Origin: a virus
Direction: 5' to 3' (one strand)
DNA length: 30,471 nt
IMG/VR virus record: IMGVR_UViG_3300030451_006653
Location: 1 to 30,471 of that record
Shown here piece after piece: positions 16,894-23,981 of this stretch. The stretch's first letter is position 1; each line of letters opens with the position of its first letter. The notes below the pieces were generated by a model. It was given only the letters and a program-made list of their open reading frames with translations, was not told where the DNA came from and searched no databases. Made by a program: the position numbers and the translations under genes.

Positions 16894-17742
16894 TTATAAC
16901 CAGTTTTTCATTATATCGATATTAGTTAATGAAATGCGAAGATAATTATCTATATTTTTATATAAAAATTTACCTTTAATTTTATTTTCATATTTTTTAT
17001 CTAATAATACAAAGTTACCATTACTCTCTTTATGCTCATATTTATTTTGTAAATACAACTTAGTTTCTAACATTCTGTTTATATGTTCTTCTTTATAGGG
17101 TAATAATTTTTCAACTCTATTTACTGTTTCAGTTGTAGTTATATATTGAGGTCTATTTTCTTGCAAATATTTTAAAACTTTTTTATTATTTGTATATGCA
17201 AACCCGCACCTTAAACCAGCTATACCTAAGCTTTTACTTAATGATCTTAAAACTATTATATTATTTAAATTACTATTTAAAAAACTATTAGCATTAGAAT
17301 ATTCTATATAAGCTTCATCAATTATAGCTATACTTGAATCGTTTATTATACGTTCGATAATATTATTACAGTATATCTCTCCAGTGTTACCGTTAGGGTT
17401 AGAAATATATACCACTTTATTTTTAAAGTCAGTTTTTTCAGGATTATCAATATTAAAATATTTTATATTTTTTACTTTACAATGGGCTTCTACCAGTTTA
17501 AACGTAGGTTGAATAATGAATACATTATCATCAATACAATAGTTTAAAATACGTTGTAATACATCACTACTACCTAATCCTATTGCTATTTTATTAATAT
17601 CTATATTATAATTTTTTGATAAAATTTTATATAATTTTAGTTCATCAGGGTAATCTACACTAAAATCTTTATCATATACAACGTTTCTGCTTAGATCTAG
17701 TAGTTTTGATGATTTATCTTTTAGATGATACTCTCTATACAC
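16894..17742 (-). CDS. PLP-dependent class I/II aminotransferase (HisC-like)
   Basis: 282 aa; HisC proteins are usually about 350, so it is compact. Visible: GLGSSDVLQRIL (cofactor phosphate region), SNPNGNTG (114-121), IDEAYIEYS with Asp142 and Tyr145, and LRSLSKSLGIAGLRCGF with the Schiff-base Lys170 and Arg178. This resembles histidinol-phosphate aminotransferases and amino-acid phosphate decarboxylases of the same fold; the substrate is not determined. The start is a GTG at 17742, chosen because AGTAAATA lies 5 nt upstream. It is unlike a usual T4 gene and fits acquisition with the sugar island. Confidence 0.85.
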   Translation of the reverse strand: MYREYHLKDKSSKLLDLSRNVVYDKDFSVDYPDELKLYKILSKNYNIDINKIAIGLGSSDVLQRILNYCIDDNVFIIQPTFKLVEAHCKVKNIKYFNIDNPEKTDFKNKVVYISNPNGNTGEIYCNNIIERIINDSSIAIIDEAYIEYSNANSFLNSNLNNIIVLRSLSKSLGIAGLRCGFAYTNNKKVLKYLQENRPQYITTTETVNRVEKLLPYKEEHINRMLETKLYLQNKYEHKESNGNFVLLDKKYENKIKGKFLYKNIDNYLRISLTNIDIMKNWL

Positions 17743-18749: not shown

Positions 18750-18945
18750 TTTTCTTTCCGCCTTTCATATTAGCACACCAATGATACATTTTACCTTTTT
18801 CTCCACCATATTTTTTAGCTTTACGTCTTAGCTCTGATACCGAGCCTTTACAACTAGCTCCAGCTCGTTTAACACGTCCAGGTCTACTTTTACCTTTACG
18901 TTTACCGTCTGCATAGTTTTCAAAATATGTTTGGAAGTTAATCAT
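18745..18945 (-). CDS. 66-aa basic Cys-pair protein
   Basis: Leader MINFQTYFEN, then a strongly basic body. A conserved-looking module CKGSVSELRRKAKKYGGEKG leads to MYHWCANMKGGKKK, with one Cys at each end. I recall this pattern from other marine phage proteins, without known function. The ATG overlaps the upstream TGA as ATGA. The gene belongs to the run of small basic late proteins and is probably packaged with DNA (inference). Confidence 0.72.
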   Translation of the reverse strand: MINFQTYFENYADGKRKGKSRPGRVKRAGASCKGSVSELRRKAKKYGGEKGKMYHWCANMKGGKKK

Positions 18946-19319
18946 TTGTTTTTTCTCATTCTTTGCGTTTTACGTTTGCTTGCTTCTTTACGTTTACTAA
19001 TATAATTATACGCAGCAGTTAATCTTTTCTTTTTAACTGGATCTTTTACCCTCCCTTTAGCAGCTCTTACTCTTTGATGAATTAAATTAATAATTTGTGA
19101 CTGTCTTGCATGTGATTTTGCTTTAAATGATTTTTTACTTAGTGTATCTCTAATATCTGAAGCAGTACTAAACTTTACTTTAACAGTATCTTTAGGATTT
19201 TCATCAGTATAAAGCCTTCTACCTGAACCTTTAGGTTTCTTACCAGTACCTTTTTTAGGGTCAGCTTCTAAAAGTATACTTTCTACTAAAGTATTAAATT
19301 TATTTACCATTTTCGACAT
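18942..19319 (-). CDS. Basic hypothetical protein with cleavable-type leader
   Basis: 125 aa from the ATG at 19319. An in-frame TTG at 19325 is possible, but AAGG lies 8 nt before the ATG. The leader MSKMVNKFNTLVESILLE ends in Leu-Leu-Glu before Ala, a very T4-like prohead-protease site. After it come a Lys/Gly-rich stretch (KKGTGKKPKGSGRR), a short domain with possible helix (DIRDTLSKKSFKAKSHARQS) and a basic end. No cysteines. The 3' end overlaps the next start as ATGA. Probably a packaged DNA-binding protein. Confidence 0.7.
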   Translation of the reverse strand: MSKMVNKFNTLVESILLEADPKKGTGKKPKGSGRRLYTDENPKDTVKVKFSTASDIRDTLSKKSFKAKSHARQSQIINLIHQRVRAAKGRVKDPVKKKRLTAAYNYISKRKEASKRKTQRMRKNK

Positions 19320-19624
19320 GACCAATACCTTGCTTTAGTTTTAGGACCAGGATTATCACAATTATGTCTAGCTCTAAATGATCTACGACGAGCAGGGTTT
19401 GATTTTCTAATTTTCATTGTTTTTTCTCCTCGTCTTTTAGCAGAAGTACCACCATGCCCAAAATTTACCTTCTTAACATTACCAGTTTTAGGATCTTTTA
19501 CATATACTTTAAATTTTTTAACATCACCTCTCATAGGTTTGTTAAGTTTTACTTTTCTACCTCTATATTCTGCATCTTCTTCAAAAGATTCAAGTAAGCT
19601 AGATACTGCATCATTAAAATTCAT
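19304..19624 (-). CDS. 106-aa basic protein with conserved Cys-pair C-terminus
   Basis: Leader MNFNDAVSSLLE, ending in Leu-Leu-Glu. The rest is basic: a short strand-rich part (KKFKVYVKDPKTGNVKKVNF), then NPARRRSFRARHNCDNPG and a second Cys in ARYWSCRKW at the very end. I recall this C-terminal signature as conserved in marine T4-like phages, with no assigned function. A late octamer lies 5 nt before the ATG. It starts the six-gene run that ends at 17755 and is divergent from the acidic protein at 19657. Confidence 0.75.
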   Translation of the reverse strand: MNFNDAVSSLLESFEEDAEYRGRKVKLNKPMRGDVKKFKVYVKDPKTGNVKKVNFGHGGTSAKRRGEKTMKIRKSNPARRRSFRARHNCDNPGPKTKARYWSCRKW

Positions 19625-19656: not shown

Positions 19657-20502
19657 ATGGCAAATAAAGATAGTGACTTGATTTACGAAGCTTATAATAA
19701 AAGTCTTAATGAAGACCTAGGTTTAGGACCAAAAGTAGGAAAAGTAATGAGGCTAGCAGGGGATTTGAATAATGATATGTCTAGACCTGCAAAAGTAACA
19801 ATTCATATTCAAAATTTAGAAGATGAAGAAGATGATAGAATTTCATCTTTTAAAAAGTTACAAAAAGCAAAAGAAAATATGACTAAGATACAACCTGAGA
19901 AAGAAAAAGAAAATAATAAAAAAGAAGAAGAAATGGTTTATATACAAGCAGGTGAACCAACCGAGTCAAGTTGCGGTGGTGATTGTGAAGGTGATTGTGG
20001 AGATGATTGCAGTTGTGATGATAAAGAAGAAAAAAGACAAATTTATGATGGTGAATTAGATATGGCAAGACTAGAATTGCTGAAAGCTAATGAGTATGCA
20101 GCTAAATTATTTCACCATATTGGTAACCATCCTGAAAGTGATTATTTAGAAGGATGGGTAGCTAGTAAAATTACTAAAGCAGCAGATTACTTATCTTCAG
20201 TTTACCATTACTTAGATTATGAAGATAATTTTGCTACAAGAGAGCCATGTTATAGTGATGAAGAAATCGATTCATTGGTAGGTCAACCAACAGCAAAAGA
20301 TACTGGATTTGCAGGAGATGAAGAATCTTGCGACGAAGAATGTGACGAAGGTCAATCTGCTGCTAATGATGAAATGATGGAATACTATTATGAAAAGGGT
20401 TTAGAAAGAGGTTTATCTATATTTAAAGATAAAGAAAAAGCTAAAAAATATGCTCTTGATTTTACTCAAAAAATGATGGAAAGACCCGGACCCCACGGAT
20501 AA
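19657..20502 (+). CDS. Acidic Cys-cluster protein with conserved helical domain
   Basis: 281 aa, acidic. Leader ending in Leu-Asn-Glu (17-19); a Lys/Glu-rich linker (about 65-92); a dense cysteine cluster with the repeat Cys-x3-Cys (CGGDCEGDCGDDCSCD, about 105-120); then a helical domain with KANEYAAKLFHHIGNHPE and WVASKITKAADYLSSVYHYL (about 142-188). I recall the last stretch as a conserved phage domain of unknown function. A second acidic Cys group follows (DEESCDEECDEG). The clusters could bind metal. It is the only plus-strand gene between two long minus runs and has a perfect late promoter. Probably virion-associated. Confidence 0.7.
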   Translation: MANKDSDLIYEAYNKSLNEDLGLGPKVGKVMRLAGDLNNDMSRPAKVTIHIQNLEDEEDDRISSFKKLQKAKENMTKIQPEKEKENNKKEEEMVYIQAGEPTESSCGGDCEGDCGDDCSCDDKEEKRQIYDGELDMARLELLKANEYAAKLFHHIGNHPESDYLEGWVASKITKAADYLSSVYHYLDYEDNFATREPCYSDEEIDSLVGQPTAKDTGFAGDEESCDEECDEGQSAANDEMMEYYYEKGLERGLSIFKDKEKAKKYALDFTQKMMERPGPHG

Positions 20503-20600: not shown

Positions 20601-22400
20601 TTAAATTAACTTATTATCAAATATACGTTTAACATCCTCATTAGCTGAGCCGTATAAATCTATTAATAATTCTCTTCTTACTTTTTCATCACCCTTACGG
20701 TAAATGTCTCTAATTTGCGAAGCACTAGTAATATTTTTACCTAATATATCAAAATTCATAGTAGGTAATGTATCAATATACCCATGTTTAGCAGAAAATT
20801 CAGCTTCCCCTACACTTTCAAAAGGTTGAAAATAGCTAGGTGACCCATCTCTTTTAGTGCCAAATTTAAATCTAGGTTTATCACCTTGCATATCTTTTTC
20901 ACTAACTGCAAAAATAATTTTAGTATTATCAGAATTATATTTTTGTACTATTTCTTGGGCAAGATATGGGTTAGTAGTCTGTACTACCATATTAGGATCT
21001 ACACCAGCATGCTTGATTAGTACTTTCTTTTCTTCAAAATTAAAAGGTGATTTATCATTATCAGATTTATTAGATGTTGAAATATAAACATCAGCAAAAG
21101 GAAATTTTTCTTTTAAACTATTATAAACTGATGCATGACCTTTATGGAATGGATGAAATCTACCAGGATAAATAACAACCGTTTTAAATTGTTTATTTTC
21201 TTCAAATTCATTTACTAAATTAAACATTTCTCCGAAAGAAGAAACTTTACTTCTTAATCTAGTACCTTCACCAGTATTAAAAACAGGAGGATTATTTATA
21301 TAATTTGAATAATAAGGCGCTACTTCAGTTTCATCTTCATTTCTAAACTTACTTTCCATTCCTTTAACTATAAACTCGCCAGTAATTTTAACAGGTGCAG
21401 GAGATATTTTTGGATCTCTTATAACTATTCCTTCATGATATTTTACTTCACCCATATCTGATGTTAAAGTAGTTAAAAGCTCATCTCCTAACAATCTAGT
21501 TGCATGATATATTACTGCACCGTCAATAGCTTTTTGAAAATCATCTTCATCTTCTACAAATAAATCTACCGGTACACCGTTTAAAATTTGCATATAAACA
21601 AACTTACTTAAAGCACCGACTCTCTTACCATCTTCTAAAGTTATCATCTCCCCGAAAGGATTATTAGCTTCTTCTAAAAACTTAATTAAAGGTTTTTGTA
21701 TTTTTTGATTTTTAATTGTAACGTTAAAATTTTTATTTAAAACATTTTGAAAATTAGGTCTTTTAGTAAATCTTGTTGGTACACTACCGTAAACTTTAAA
21801 ATTATATTTTTCTGCAAACTTGTTTAATTTTTTTATTAAATTATCCAATATTCTAGGATTAACTTCTACTTCTTTACTAGCTCTTCTTCTAGGAGTTACT
21901 TGATAAAATTCATTAACACCGTGAATAGCTAAAAAATCATTCTCATATTGTAAAACATTAGATTGACCTTCTACAAATTCAGTATTAAAAAATCGATTTG
22001 TATTATCAATCATACCTAATTTTTTTAGCTCAGGTTCAATATTAGGTAAAGCCTCATTCATTATAGATAAAAGTTTTTGCCCAGCATTTACCATACCATG
22101 ACCTTCACCGAATCTATCTAATAGTTTATCTATAGTAATACCTTGAAGGTCGAGTGGTTTCATAGAACCTCTATCTAATGCAAATCTTTTACCTTCAGGG
22201 GTATCTACTAGTCTAAAACTAGCATTAACACCGTCGATTTTTAAAGCTGGGGCATTAGTTGCAATACTATTTACTATTCGATTAAAAAAATTAATTAAAT
22301 CTTTTCCTGTTTTATTTGTAGGTAAATCGAAAGGATGAGCCATATGCCCTGCAGCTCCTCCTTCATTAATTAAATTATATAGTTCTTTAAAATTTCTCAT
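20601..22400 (-). CDS. RNA-ligase-like and NMNAT-like two-domain protein
   Basis: 599 aa from the ATG at 22400, which overlaps the upstream TGA as ATGA; an upstream start adds six residues. The leader MRNFKELYNLINE ends in Ile-Asn-Glu. The N-terminal domain has motifs of covalent nucleotidyltransferases (RNA/DNA ligases): KIDG (54-57) as motif I, Glu141 in FFNTEFVE as motif III, EGIVIRD (323-329) as motif IV, and FIVKG (Lys346) as motif V. The C-terminal domain (about 406-570) has GRFHPFHKGH (413-422), the HxGH of nicotinamide-nucleotide adenylyltransferase relatives, and TSASQIR (558-564), like ISSTxIR. So one chain may both adenylylate or seal nucleic acid ends and make a dinucleotide such as NAD. 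The spacing between ligase motifs I and IV is longer than in T4 Rnl2, so ligase activity is not certain. Confidence 0.72.
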   Translation of the reverse strand: MRNFKELYNLINEGGAAGHMAHPFDLPTNKTGKDLINFFNRIVNSIATNAPALKIDGVNASFRLVDTPEGKRFALDRGSMKPLDLQGITIDKLLDRFGEGHGMVNAGQKLLSIMNEALPNIEPELKKLGMIDNTNRFFNTEFVEGQSNVLQYENDFLAIHGVNEFYQVTPRRRASKEVEVNPRILDNLIKKLNKFAEKYNFKVYGSVPTRFTKRPNFQNVLNKNFNVTIKNQKIQKPLIKFLEEANNPFGEMITLEDGKRVGALSKFVYMQILNGVPVDLFVEDEDDFQKAIDGAVIYHATRLLGDELLTTLTSDMGEVKYHEGIVIRDPKISPAPVKITGEFIVKGMESKFRNEDETEVAPYYSNYINNPPVFNTGEGTRLRSKVSSFGEMFNLVNEFEENKQFKTVVIYPGRFHPFHKGHASVYNSLKEKFPFADVYISTSNKSDNDKSPFNFEEKKVLIKHAGVDPNMVVQTTNPYLAQEIVQKYNSDNTKIIFAVSEKDMQGDKPRFKFGTKRDGSPSYFQPFESVGEAEFSAKHGYIDTLPTMNFDILGKNITSASQIRDIYRKGDEKVRRELLIDLYGSANEDVKRIFDNKLI

Positions 22401-23410
22401 GTTAATGTACAACTCCACCCTTTACCGTCTTTACGACGTGAAAATCTAAAATTGCCTTTTAAATTATTTATTTTAGAATAAAAATCAGATAAATTAGATA
22501 CGTTTTGCATATTTACAGTCTGAAGAACTAAATCATTGCCTATTTGATTATAACCTAAGAATACATCAAAACCTTGAGCTTTTTGGTAATAATACAATTG
22601 AACAATACCACCTATTTGGGTAATCATATTTACACCTAATCTACCCATACCAGGTCTTAATCTTCCTCTTTGTAGATAATAATCCCTTTCCTGAAACATT
22701 AGATCTGAAAGATTATGATCTTTAATTAGTTTTAAAAGTTCATCTTTTGATTGTTCTAAGCCACAATATTTAGCAATAAACTTACTAATATTTTGTAAGA
22801 TTGATTCATTGTTATCACTAGTTTCTTCTAAGTCACTAAAGTCATCAGTTAGAGCTGCAGTTTTACATAATCTGCCGCCTGGGCCTTTTAATTCAATTTC
22901 TAAACCACCAGTACTTAAATCCCCTTTTTTAGGTTTTACTCCATCACATATAAATGCTAAGTATAACTCTCCACATCCTGGAGCTCCATGAGTAGGTGCT
23001 TCTGGTAGCGCGCACCATGCTTTATCAAAATATTTGTTATACACATCAGTATTAGGAAAACTATTATTAATAAATTCATCCAATTTAAATAAAGCACTAT
23101 TATTACATAAATTTACTAAATTATTTTGAGCAGATTTAAATTTATCATCATTTAATTCAATTCTAGCTGCATAGGTGTAACTTTGAAATGTATTGAGATT
23201 ATCATTAATATTACCACCAGCTTTTTCTAATCTATCTTCTATTTTTTTTCTTCCAGCTATACTATCAGTAGATCCCATTTTCATATAACGAGATAAAATA
23301 TCTTCGTAATATTTTTGATCTACATTTGCAAGTAATTCATAACTATCACCCTTTTTTGTATAAAGAGCAACATCTTCGTTATATACTTTATCTAGTGGTC
23401 TCCAGCTCAT
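22397..23410 (-). CDS. PD-(D/E)XK-like putative nuclease
   Basis: 337 aa. The core KKGDLSTGGLEIELKGPGGR contains Asp164, Glu173 and Lys175 in the Asp...Glu-x-Lys arrangement of restriction-endonuclease-fold enzymes, with Glu148 in GELYLAF as a possible helix residue. A glycine-rich GPGGR follows, as in related phage proteins. The N-terminal 120 residues are helical and unknown. ATGA overlaps join it to both neighbours, so it is coupled to the ligase/NMNAT-like protein. Substrate unknown; a structural role with a remnant nuclease fold is possible. It lacks the (L/I)-x-E leader of its neighbours. Confidence 0.6.
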   Translation of the reverse strand: MSWRPLDKVYNEDVALYTKKGDSYELLANVDQKYYEDILSRYMKMGSTDSIAGRKKIEDRLEKAGGNINDNLNTFQSYTYAARIELNDDKFKSAQNNLVNLCNNSALFKLDEFINNSFPNTDVYNKYFDKAWCALPEAPTHGAPGCGELYLAFICDGVKPKKGDLSTGGLEIELKGPGGRLCKTAALTDDFSDLEETSDNNESILQNISKFIAKYCGLEQSKDELLKLIKDHNLSDLMFQERDYYLQRGRLRPGMGRLGVNMITQIGGIVQLYYYQKAQGFDVFLGYNQIGNDLVLQTVNMQNVSNLSDFYSKINNLKGNFRFSRRKDGKGWSCTLT

Positions 23411-23748
23411 AACCCAACGTCTATATCAGATGAATATTTTTTCAGAATATTAATTAGACGTTTGAGAGCTTCTTTGGCATTATTTTCATTGATATCTTCG
23501 AAATCACCAATTGCAGTTAAATCCTCGGCATCAATCTTTGTTGCTAAAGCTTTCTTTATTAATCTAACTAATAAAACTTCACTTTCTGGTGATAACTTAG
23601 TAACTTCAACTTCAGGTACTTCTGGCTCTACTGGTGTAGTTGCCATTAAATTAGAAGGATTACTGTTAGGACTCAATGACTCTGGGTTAGGCATATCACC
23701 TTGCTGTAACTCATTAATAAGTTTATCTATTGTACTAACAAAATTCAT
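23407..23748 (-). CDS. Small hypothetical protein with cleavable-type leader
   Basis: 113 aa. Leader MNFVSTIDKLINE ends in Ile-Asn-Glu. Then comes a Pro/Ser/Asn/Glu-rich linker (about 18-50) and a helical C-terminal part (SEVLLVRLIKKALATKIDAE, then LKRLINILKKY). Unknown family. Acidic overall. The ATG overlaps the previous stop as TAATG, and the stop overlaps the next start. It belongs to the four-gene unit 23981 to 20601. Confidence 0.65.
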   Translation of the reverse strand: MNFVSTIDKLINELQQGDMPNPESLSPNSNPSNLMATTPVEPEVPEVEVTKLSPESEVLLVRLIKKALATKIDAEDLTAIGDFEDINENNAKEALKRLINILKKYSSDIDVGL

Positions 23749-23981
23749 TATATTTTTCTCTCTAATTCCTCTATTTTAGAAGCAATTTTACTAAAGACTC
23801 TATCTAATGCTTTATTAATTCTTTCTTGACCGCTTTTTTGAAAAAAACGAGATTTCTCTGGAGTAGCTCCTATAGAAGTAGCAACTTTAGCTATTTGACT
23901 TAATTTAGCTAAATCTTCAGATGCATCTTGCTCATTTATTTTGCTTAGTATCTTCGATGCTTTTACAGTATAGTTATCCAT
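23748..23981 (-). CDS. Small helical hypothetical protein with cleavable-type leader
   Basis: 77 aa, predicted mostly helical. Leader ends in Ile-Asn-Glu (15-17). The C-terminal part (RINKALDRVFSKIASKIEEL) has heptad-like spacing, suggesting an oligomerising helix. No family recognised. A late octamer (GATAAATA) lies exactly 5 nt before the ATG, making this the first gene of the unit with the PD-(D/E)XK-like and ligase/NMNAT-like genes. Confidence 0.65.
   Translation of the reverse strand: MDNYTVKASKILSKINEQDASEDLAKLSQIAKVATSIGATPEKSRFFQKSGQERINKALDRVFSKIASKIEELERKI

Follow-up and report, generated by a model that had tools for sequence, protein, structure and literature searches.

The gene and its two domains

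The gene lies on the minus strand of a 30,471-base IMG/VR virus record, the whole of which was analysed and is called the window here. It starts with an ATG at 22400, sharing an ATGA overlap with the gene upstream, and ends with a stop codon at 20601. Neighboring genes in the window encode a UvsW-like helicase and an SbcD/gp47-like phosphoesterase, and the window is therefore taken to be a fragment of a T4-like phage genome. A HisC-like aminotransferase gene also lies in it, at 16894-17742 (minus). PADLOC returned nothing credible, and the T4 late-promoter motif TATAAATA is not enriched in the window, so late promoters offer no evidence on timing. The features discussed below are as follows.

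20601..22400, minus: whole gene, 599 amino acids; leader, ligase-like domain, linker and HIGH nucleotidyltransferase
22362..22400, minus: leader, residues 1-13 (MRNFKELYNLINE), with a putative T4-type capsid-targeting/prohead-protease site, L-I-N-E↓GG
21345..22361, minus: ligase-like (KxDG) domain, residues 14-352; RNA ligases in Foldseek, no Pfam match
22326..22349, minus: invariant GHMAHPFD block, residues 18-25; its counterpart in DUF6267 is HxxHLED
22218..22241, minus: motif I, KIDGVNAS; Lys54 is the predicted nucleotide acceptor
22164..22175, minus: motif Ia-like DRGS (Arg77), conserved in the alignment
21966..21989, minus: motif III-like FNTEFVEG (Glu141), paired by hhalign with FGEFAG of T4 Rnl2, a pairing not significant alone
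21414..21434, minus: motif IV, EGIVIRD (Glu323), conserved in the alignment
21372..21392, minus: motif V, VKITGEF (Lys338 invariant), conserved in the alignment
21192..21344, minus: linker, residues 353-403, predicted to be disordered
20604..21191, minus: HIGH-superfamily nucleotidyltransferase, residues 404-599, with GRFHPFHKGH (413-422), EKDM (501-504) and TSASQIR (558-564)
22397..23410, minus: upstream overlapping gene, 337 amino acids, with PD-(D/E)XK nuclease-like motifs GxGE...GDL...IELKG..GR

The first-pass annotation had described one protein that combines ligase-type and adenylyltransferase motifs behind a head-targeting leader. The open reading frame is genuine and every motif quoted there was located in the translation: LINE at the end of the leader (10-13), KIDG (54-57), FNTEFVE (138-144), EGIVIRD (323-329), FIVKG (343-347) and the two C-terminal motifs listed above. 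AlphaFold2 models the full-length protein with a mean pLDDT of 86.7 (78 aligned sequences), with values below 50 at residues 12-14 and 349-403, and gives the ligase-like domain modeled alone (residues 14-352) a pLDDT of 92.7. At least 562 relatives of the protein are present in IMG/VR.

A KxDG lysine followed in order by motifs III, IV and V places the N-terminal domain, as judged from its motifs, in the covalent nucleotidyltransferase (ligase/capping) superfamily, the order fitting motifs I, Ia, III, IV and V of these enzymes. Across 42 aligned N-domains, K54, D56, G57, N59, R77, E141, E323, G324 and K338 are invariant. The ordered KxDG-R-E-EG-K set fell in conserved columns in one of 200,000 column shuffles, a control that ignores secondary structure and whose ranges were chosen with the observed motifs in view. 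Both Lys54 and Lys346 (of FIVKG) had been expected to be conserved. Lys54 is invariant, but position 346 is K, S, G or R in relatives; Lys346 was accordingly ruled out as the motif V lysine, and the invariant K338 (of VKITG) takes that place. Motif V is usually K-x-K; in the window family it has one lysine (KIT), and a long insertion separates motifs III and IV.

When the model of residues 14-352 was compared with the PDB by Foldseek, T4 Rnl1 ranked first (E 0.016), RNA ligases including Rnl1 and Rnl2 fell at E 0.016-0.1, and 13 of the 15 best folds were covalent nucleotidyltransferases (ligases or capping enzymes), mostly RNA ligases. A fold unrelated to ligases was thus not the outcome, but the likeness is weak: because no PDB match passes E 0.001 (TM about 0.2), the assignment is suggestive and not proven, though RNA ligases rank first. 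In sequence searches, Pfam recognizes only the C-terminal half of the protein, and no ligase profile matched significantly, including those of T4 Rnl1 and Rnl2 (PF09511, PF09414). The hhalign comparison of the window family with T4 Rnl2 was not significant (E 0.39), and PDB sequence searches with the family alignments returned nothing relevant.

Scans recovered a distant branch of the family, which hhalign aligns to the window family with an E of 2.6e-18. In IMG/VR it is represented by at least 598 relatives, and a single isolate, Microcystis phage Mel-JY01, also carries it; there the fused protein (WWT39297.1), in which IIAE stands before GGLGGH, is encoded ~2.6 kb from the large terminase. 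The branch has EK-x-DG as its motif I. A match to Pfam RNA_ligase, below the cut-off, came from one member (E 0.0043-0.027), and the branch aligns to Rnl2 with an E of 0.017, the four control families all being worse (0.083-0.67).

The C-terminal half matches PF01467 with an E of 8.3e-9 (36.2 bits against a cut-off of 21), and this profile together with HxGH and SxTxxR-type motifs indicates membership in the HIGH nucleotidyltransferase superfamily. Foldseek with the full model retrieves NadM and NadD structures through this domain (best E 5e-5). Motifs and Foldseek ranks therefore agree on a covalent-nucleotidyltransferase-like half fused to an NMNAT-like HIGH domain, as first proposed. With both folds presented here as models, the window family is a phage protein in which a ligase-like enzyme not described before and a nucleotidyltransferase form two confidently modeled domains; in the library of papers searched, none dealt with RNA ligase and NMNAT fusions or with DUF6267. 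Jumbo phages have members of the HIGH family too: in Pseudomonas phage PA5oct the gene (L182 3959-4531) lies among others whose products are labeled virion proteins on mass-spectrometric evidence.

Leader and putative prohead-protease site

The leader had been read as a head-targeting signal, and it does end in the pattern of T4 internal proteins, [LI]-x-E before a small residue, which points to a T4-type capsid-targeting and processing leader. In T4, gp21 cleaves after L/I-X-E, and ten residues of IPIII suffice for targeting (PMC9026906). Cleavage at this site would leave GGAAGHMAHPFD as the mature N-terminus of the ligase-like domain; residues 1-14 have low pLDDT. Leaders of relatives, such as MKTFKNYILNE and MITFAQFITE, resemble MKTYQEFIAE of T4 IPIII.

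The GGxxGHMAHPFD block is preceded by [LIV]-x-E in 66 of 79 copies, by the start Met in 10 and by Cys in three, the last adjoining a homing-endonuclease insertion. In the distant branch [LIV]-x-E↓GG is found in 80 of 83 copies, with one copy that ends just before the Glu left unscored. The site precedes the ligase domain even when that domain is internal, and in swapped fusions it lies between the two enzymes. Once stripped of Met, the leaderless copies would likewise begin with Gly-Gly, which suggests that this end is itself important and that the cut falls between E and G. The insertion just mentioned (L022 6400-7500, also L021 and L023) is in frame, spans ~265 codons, has HNH homing-endonuclease features and adjoins the LLTEGGAA/GHMAHPFD junction; an Rfam search of the L022 copy found no intron. 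An AGGxVAGH-type motif like the GGAAGHMAHPFD block was seen in the C-terminal parts of larger fusions (L024, L064, L068).

An S77 prohead protease was found in eight of the 18 records searched, including all of those of 150 kb or more, and not in the window, a 30 kb fragment. The gp23 of one relative carries LNE↓A at a plausible site. Some relatives, with a Met-GG start, and the P-HM2 proteins have no leader; therefore, either packaging is not universal or the leader is not needed for it. In P-HM2, DUF6267 (T4-GC71) adjoins a HIGH protein (T4-GC190), with profile matches of E 1.4e-60 and 2.4e-19, respectively. T4-GC190 belongs to the core proteins of cyanophages, and mass spectrometry has detected it in virions (PMC3037559); a cytidylyltransferase, which may not belong to the HIGH family of the window, was found in S-CREM2 virions (PMC10665884). 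By analogy with the cyanophage partner enzyme, published virion proteomics supports packaging of the window-family protein only indirectly. Several small neighbors in the window (18942-19325, 19304-19624, 19657-20502, 23407-23748 and 23748-23981) also begin with short leaders containing [LIV]-x-E and may form a head-packaged cluster.

Linkage to the HIGH nucleotidyltransferase and DUF6267

The pairing of a ligase-like protein with a HIGH domain recurs in hundreds of aquatic phages, the much-studied cyanophages among them, as fusions in both orders and as split neighboring genes. Of the 67 whole genes of the window family, 63 either are fused to a HIGH nucleotidyltransferase or have one no more than 500 bp away, a count somewhat biased because two of the six patterns used to retrieve these genes were at or within the C-terminal half. 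For DUF6267, retrieved by its own half only, the linkage holds in 49 of 53 whole genes. Neither count is made up of independent cases, as many loci are near-identical.

DUF6267 is another KxDG family, with KFDG, an EG motif followed by a lysine, and an HxxH block like GHMAHPFD. In one locus (L074, which shares its contig with L086) and in its relatives, a HIGH domain ~66% identical to that of the window is fused to DUF6267 (E 2.6e-78); S-PM2d138 is another DUF6267-HIGH protein. The window protein itself does not match the DUF6267 profile (PF19782), and hhalign with a single DUF6267 sequence gave a wrong register and low probability. Redone with a DUF6267 alignment, the comparison with the window family gave an E of 8e-4, against 0.08-0.75 for controls. 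A further hhalign match, of one of the family alignments (A3) to that of the C-domain, was discarded as an artefact, because the latter runs into the KxDG start in swapped fusions. The same slot in related phages holds either the window family or DUF6267; in L101, for example, DUF6267 and a HIGH domain stand beside a homologue (66%) of the gene upstream of ours. Distant homology of the two families is likely, and their functional equivalence is more likely still.

The upstream 337-residue gene is likely part of the same cassette. Homologues or look-alikes of it are found in front of both KxDG families, HTVC008M and Melnitz being two of the cases. In Pelagibacter phage HTVC008M (L143 3914-9158) nuclease-like, DUF6267, P-loop kinase and HIGH genes are close together, the kinase lying between DUF6267 and the HIGH protein, and all are annotated as hypothetical. 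The cluster has the look of an end-healing and sealing cassette. The PD-(D/E)XK-like nuclease and the HTVC008M kinase, taken with the ligase and NAPRTase searches described below, fit a cassette for nucleic-acid end processing.

Candidate function and comparison with known systems

We give an even chance to the reading that the protein is a virion-packaged bifunctional enzyme of a T4-like phage that processes or joins nucleic-acid ends, together with its own nucleotidyltransferase. For the window protein we infer self-adenylylation, sealing, substrate, cleavage and injection as follows. The N-domain would be a very diverged RNA-ligase-type covalent nucleotidyltransferase whose Lys54 takes AMP from ATP and passes it to a 5'-phosphate, after which the nick or break would be sealed. 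The fused HIGH domain would perform a linked nucleotidyl transfer, for cofactor supply or recycling or for end activation. Meanwhile, the 13-residue leader would send the protein into the prohead, where a T4 gp21-type protease would remove it after LINE to leave a Gly-Gly N-terminus, and the enzyme would travel in the head and be delivered along with the DNA. The enzyme pair may thus be a repair set that the virion brings with it.

The absence of a significant ligase profile match, the weak fold scores, the single motif V lysine, the insertion between motifs III and IV and the leaderless relatives speak against this reading, as does the location of the genes near uvsW and gp47 and not in a head-gene block. 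This location sits better with the KxDG domain being a DNA ligase that seals nicks in place of gp30, which marine T4-like phages lack, and that serves replication and recombination, not repair against host defence, and the corresponding cyanophage genes lie near uvsX and gp41. Cyanomyoviruses lack g30, and whether distant homologues exist has been asked (PMC2984593). No PF01068 or PF01653 ligase was found in 16 related marine or aquatic records, although T4, the positive control, was matched by PF01068; these records are mostly fragments. Most related records likewise lack Rnl1 and Rnl2 profile matches, and only one (G020) has Rnl1/Rnl2-type genes, elsewhere in the record. However, RNA ligases supply both the closest folds and the pattern of motif I (K-x-x-G-x-N), a head-packaging leader would be odd for a replication enzyme, and the host ligase could do the job (PMC2984593), so that we regard a DNA ligase as unlikely. 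Much the same holds for the idea that the domain keeps nucleotidyltransferase chemistry without being a ligase: the HIGH domain would make or activate a nucleotide, and the KxDG domain would attach it to DNA, to the end of an RNA or to a host protein, much as capping or AMPylating enzymes do. The conserved catalytic-type lysine and glutamates, the almost obligate pairing with the HIGH enzyme, a capping enzyme among the weak fold matches and a motif V without its second lysine are all consistent with it; but RNA ligases dominate the fold matches and the substrate assignment is purely conjectural, and we consider this, too, improbable.

The first-pass annotation had also raised rebuilding of NAD destroyed by host defence, in which the HIGH domain would be a genuine NMN adenylyltransferase assisted by the KxDG half. 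The best enzyme-specific profiles and folds for the HIGH domain are indeed those of NMNATs, but it falls far below every NMNAT-specific curated cut-off (27.1 against 181.2 bits for TIGR01527; 11-24 bits against 354-449 for NadM models). NAPRTase (NadV) was found in none of 18 related records, 15 of which may be fragments. NAD rebuilding is therefore poorly supported, the NadV plus NMNAT pathway was rejected, and this role would not explain why the KxDG half is conserved more strictly; we consider this role very unlikely. As for the leader, LxE-GG could instead simply be the end of a helix that the KxDG domain requires in order to fold, as the site is conserved even where internal and E↓GG is almost invariant. 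Yet the ten Met-GG relatives start directly at GG and so lack both the Glu and the helix, residues 1-14 are modeled with low confidence, and the leaders are like those of T4 IPI, IPII and IPIII. We find a helix end unlikely, and capsid targeting remains the preferred reading of the leader.

A bolder extension of the packaged-enzyme reading, which we think quite unlikely, is that T4-like aquatic phages have their unrecognized ligases in the window family and DUF6267, and that each is packaged in the head as a pro-enzyme, to be split from its nucleotidyltransferase by the prohead protease. In its extreme form, the ligase would use NAD, and the fused NMNAT-like domain would remake NAD from the released NMN and ATP, giving a self-recycling enzyme.

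In the sea, few viruses are as abundant as cyanophages and their relatives. To our knowledge, T4-GC71 (DUF6267) and T4-GC190 are conserved cyanophage genes with no function, or only a guessed one, assigned to them. The present analysis ties both to one enzyme pair, and provides DUF6267 and a second, unnamed family with a testable set of catalytic residues. It offers a candidate for the ligase noted as missing in a 2010 review (PMC2984593), and the internal E↓GG site predicts that the head protease splits the two-enzyme fusion inside the virion.

Compared with T4 Rnl1 and Rnl2, which provide the best-ranked PDB folds, the window family has motifs I, Ia, III, IV and V in the same order, and motif I of Rnl2 (KIHGTNFS) shares K-I-x-G-x-N-x-S with KIDGVNAS of the window, with the same spacing to the Asn. 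Unlike these ligases, the family has a single motif V lysine, a long insert between motifs III and IV and no profile match, and the window protein adds the N-terminal GHMAHPFD block, the fused HIGH domain and the leader. DUF6267 (PF19782, PHROG 455, cyanophage T4-GC71) shares the KxDG...EG...K order, an HxxH before motif I, fusion or adjacency to the same HIGH domain, and the genomic slot, but is too diverged for an HMM match and differs in having Asp in motif III and Lys in motif Ia. T4 IPI, IPII and IPIII, like window-family relatives, have an M-K-[TS]-[FY]-type leader ending in [LI]-x-E before a small residue (MKTYQEFIAE↓A in IPII and IPIII), whereas the cargo here is enzymatic, with targeting and cleavage predicted from sequence. 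Finally, members of the HIGH superfamily (NadM, NadR, archaeal NMNAT, the phage 'cytidyltransferase' of PHROG 395/3041 and T4-GC190) share GRFxPxHxGH, (S/T)xSxxR and the fold with the window domain, which is set apart from NMNATs by its sub-cut-off scores, a conserved EKDM..D.PRF and its fusion partner.
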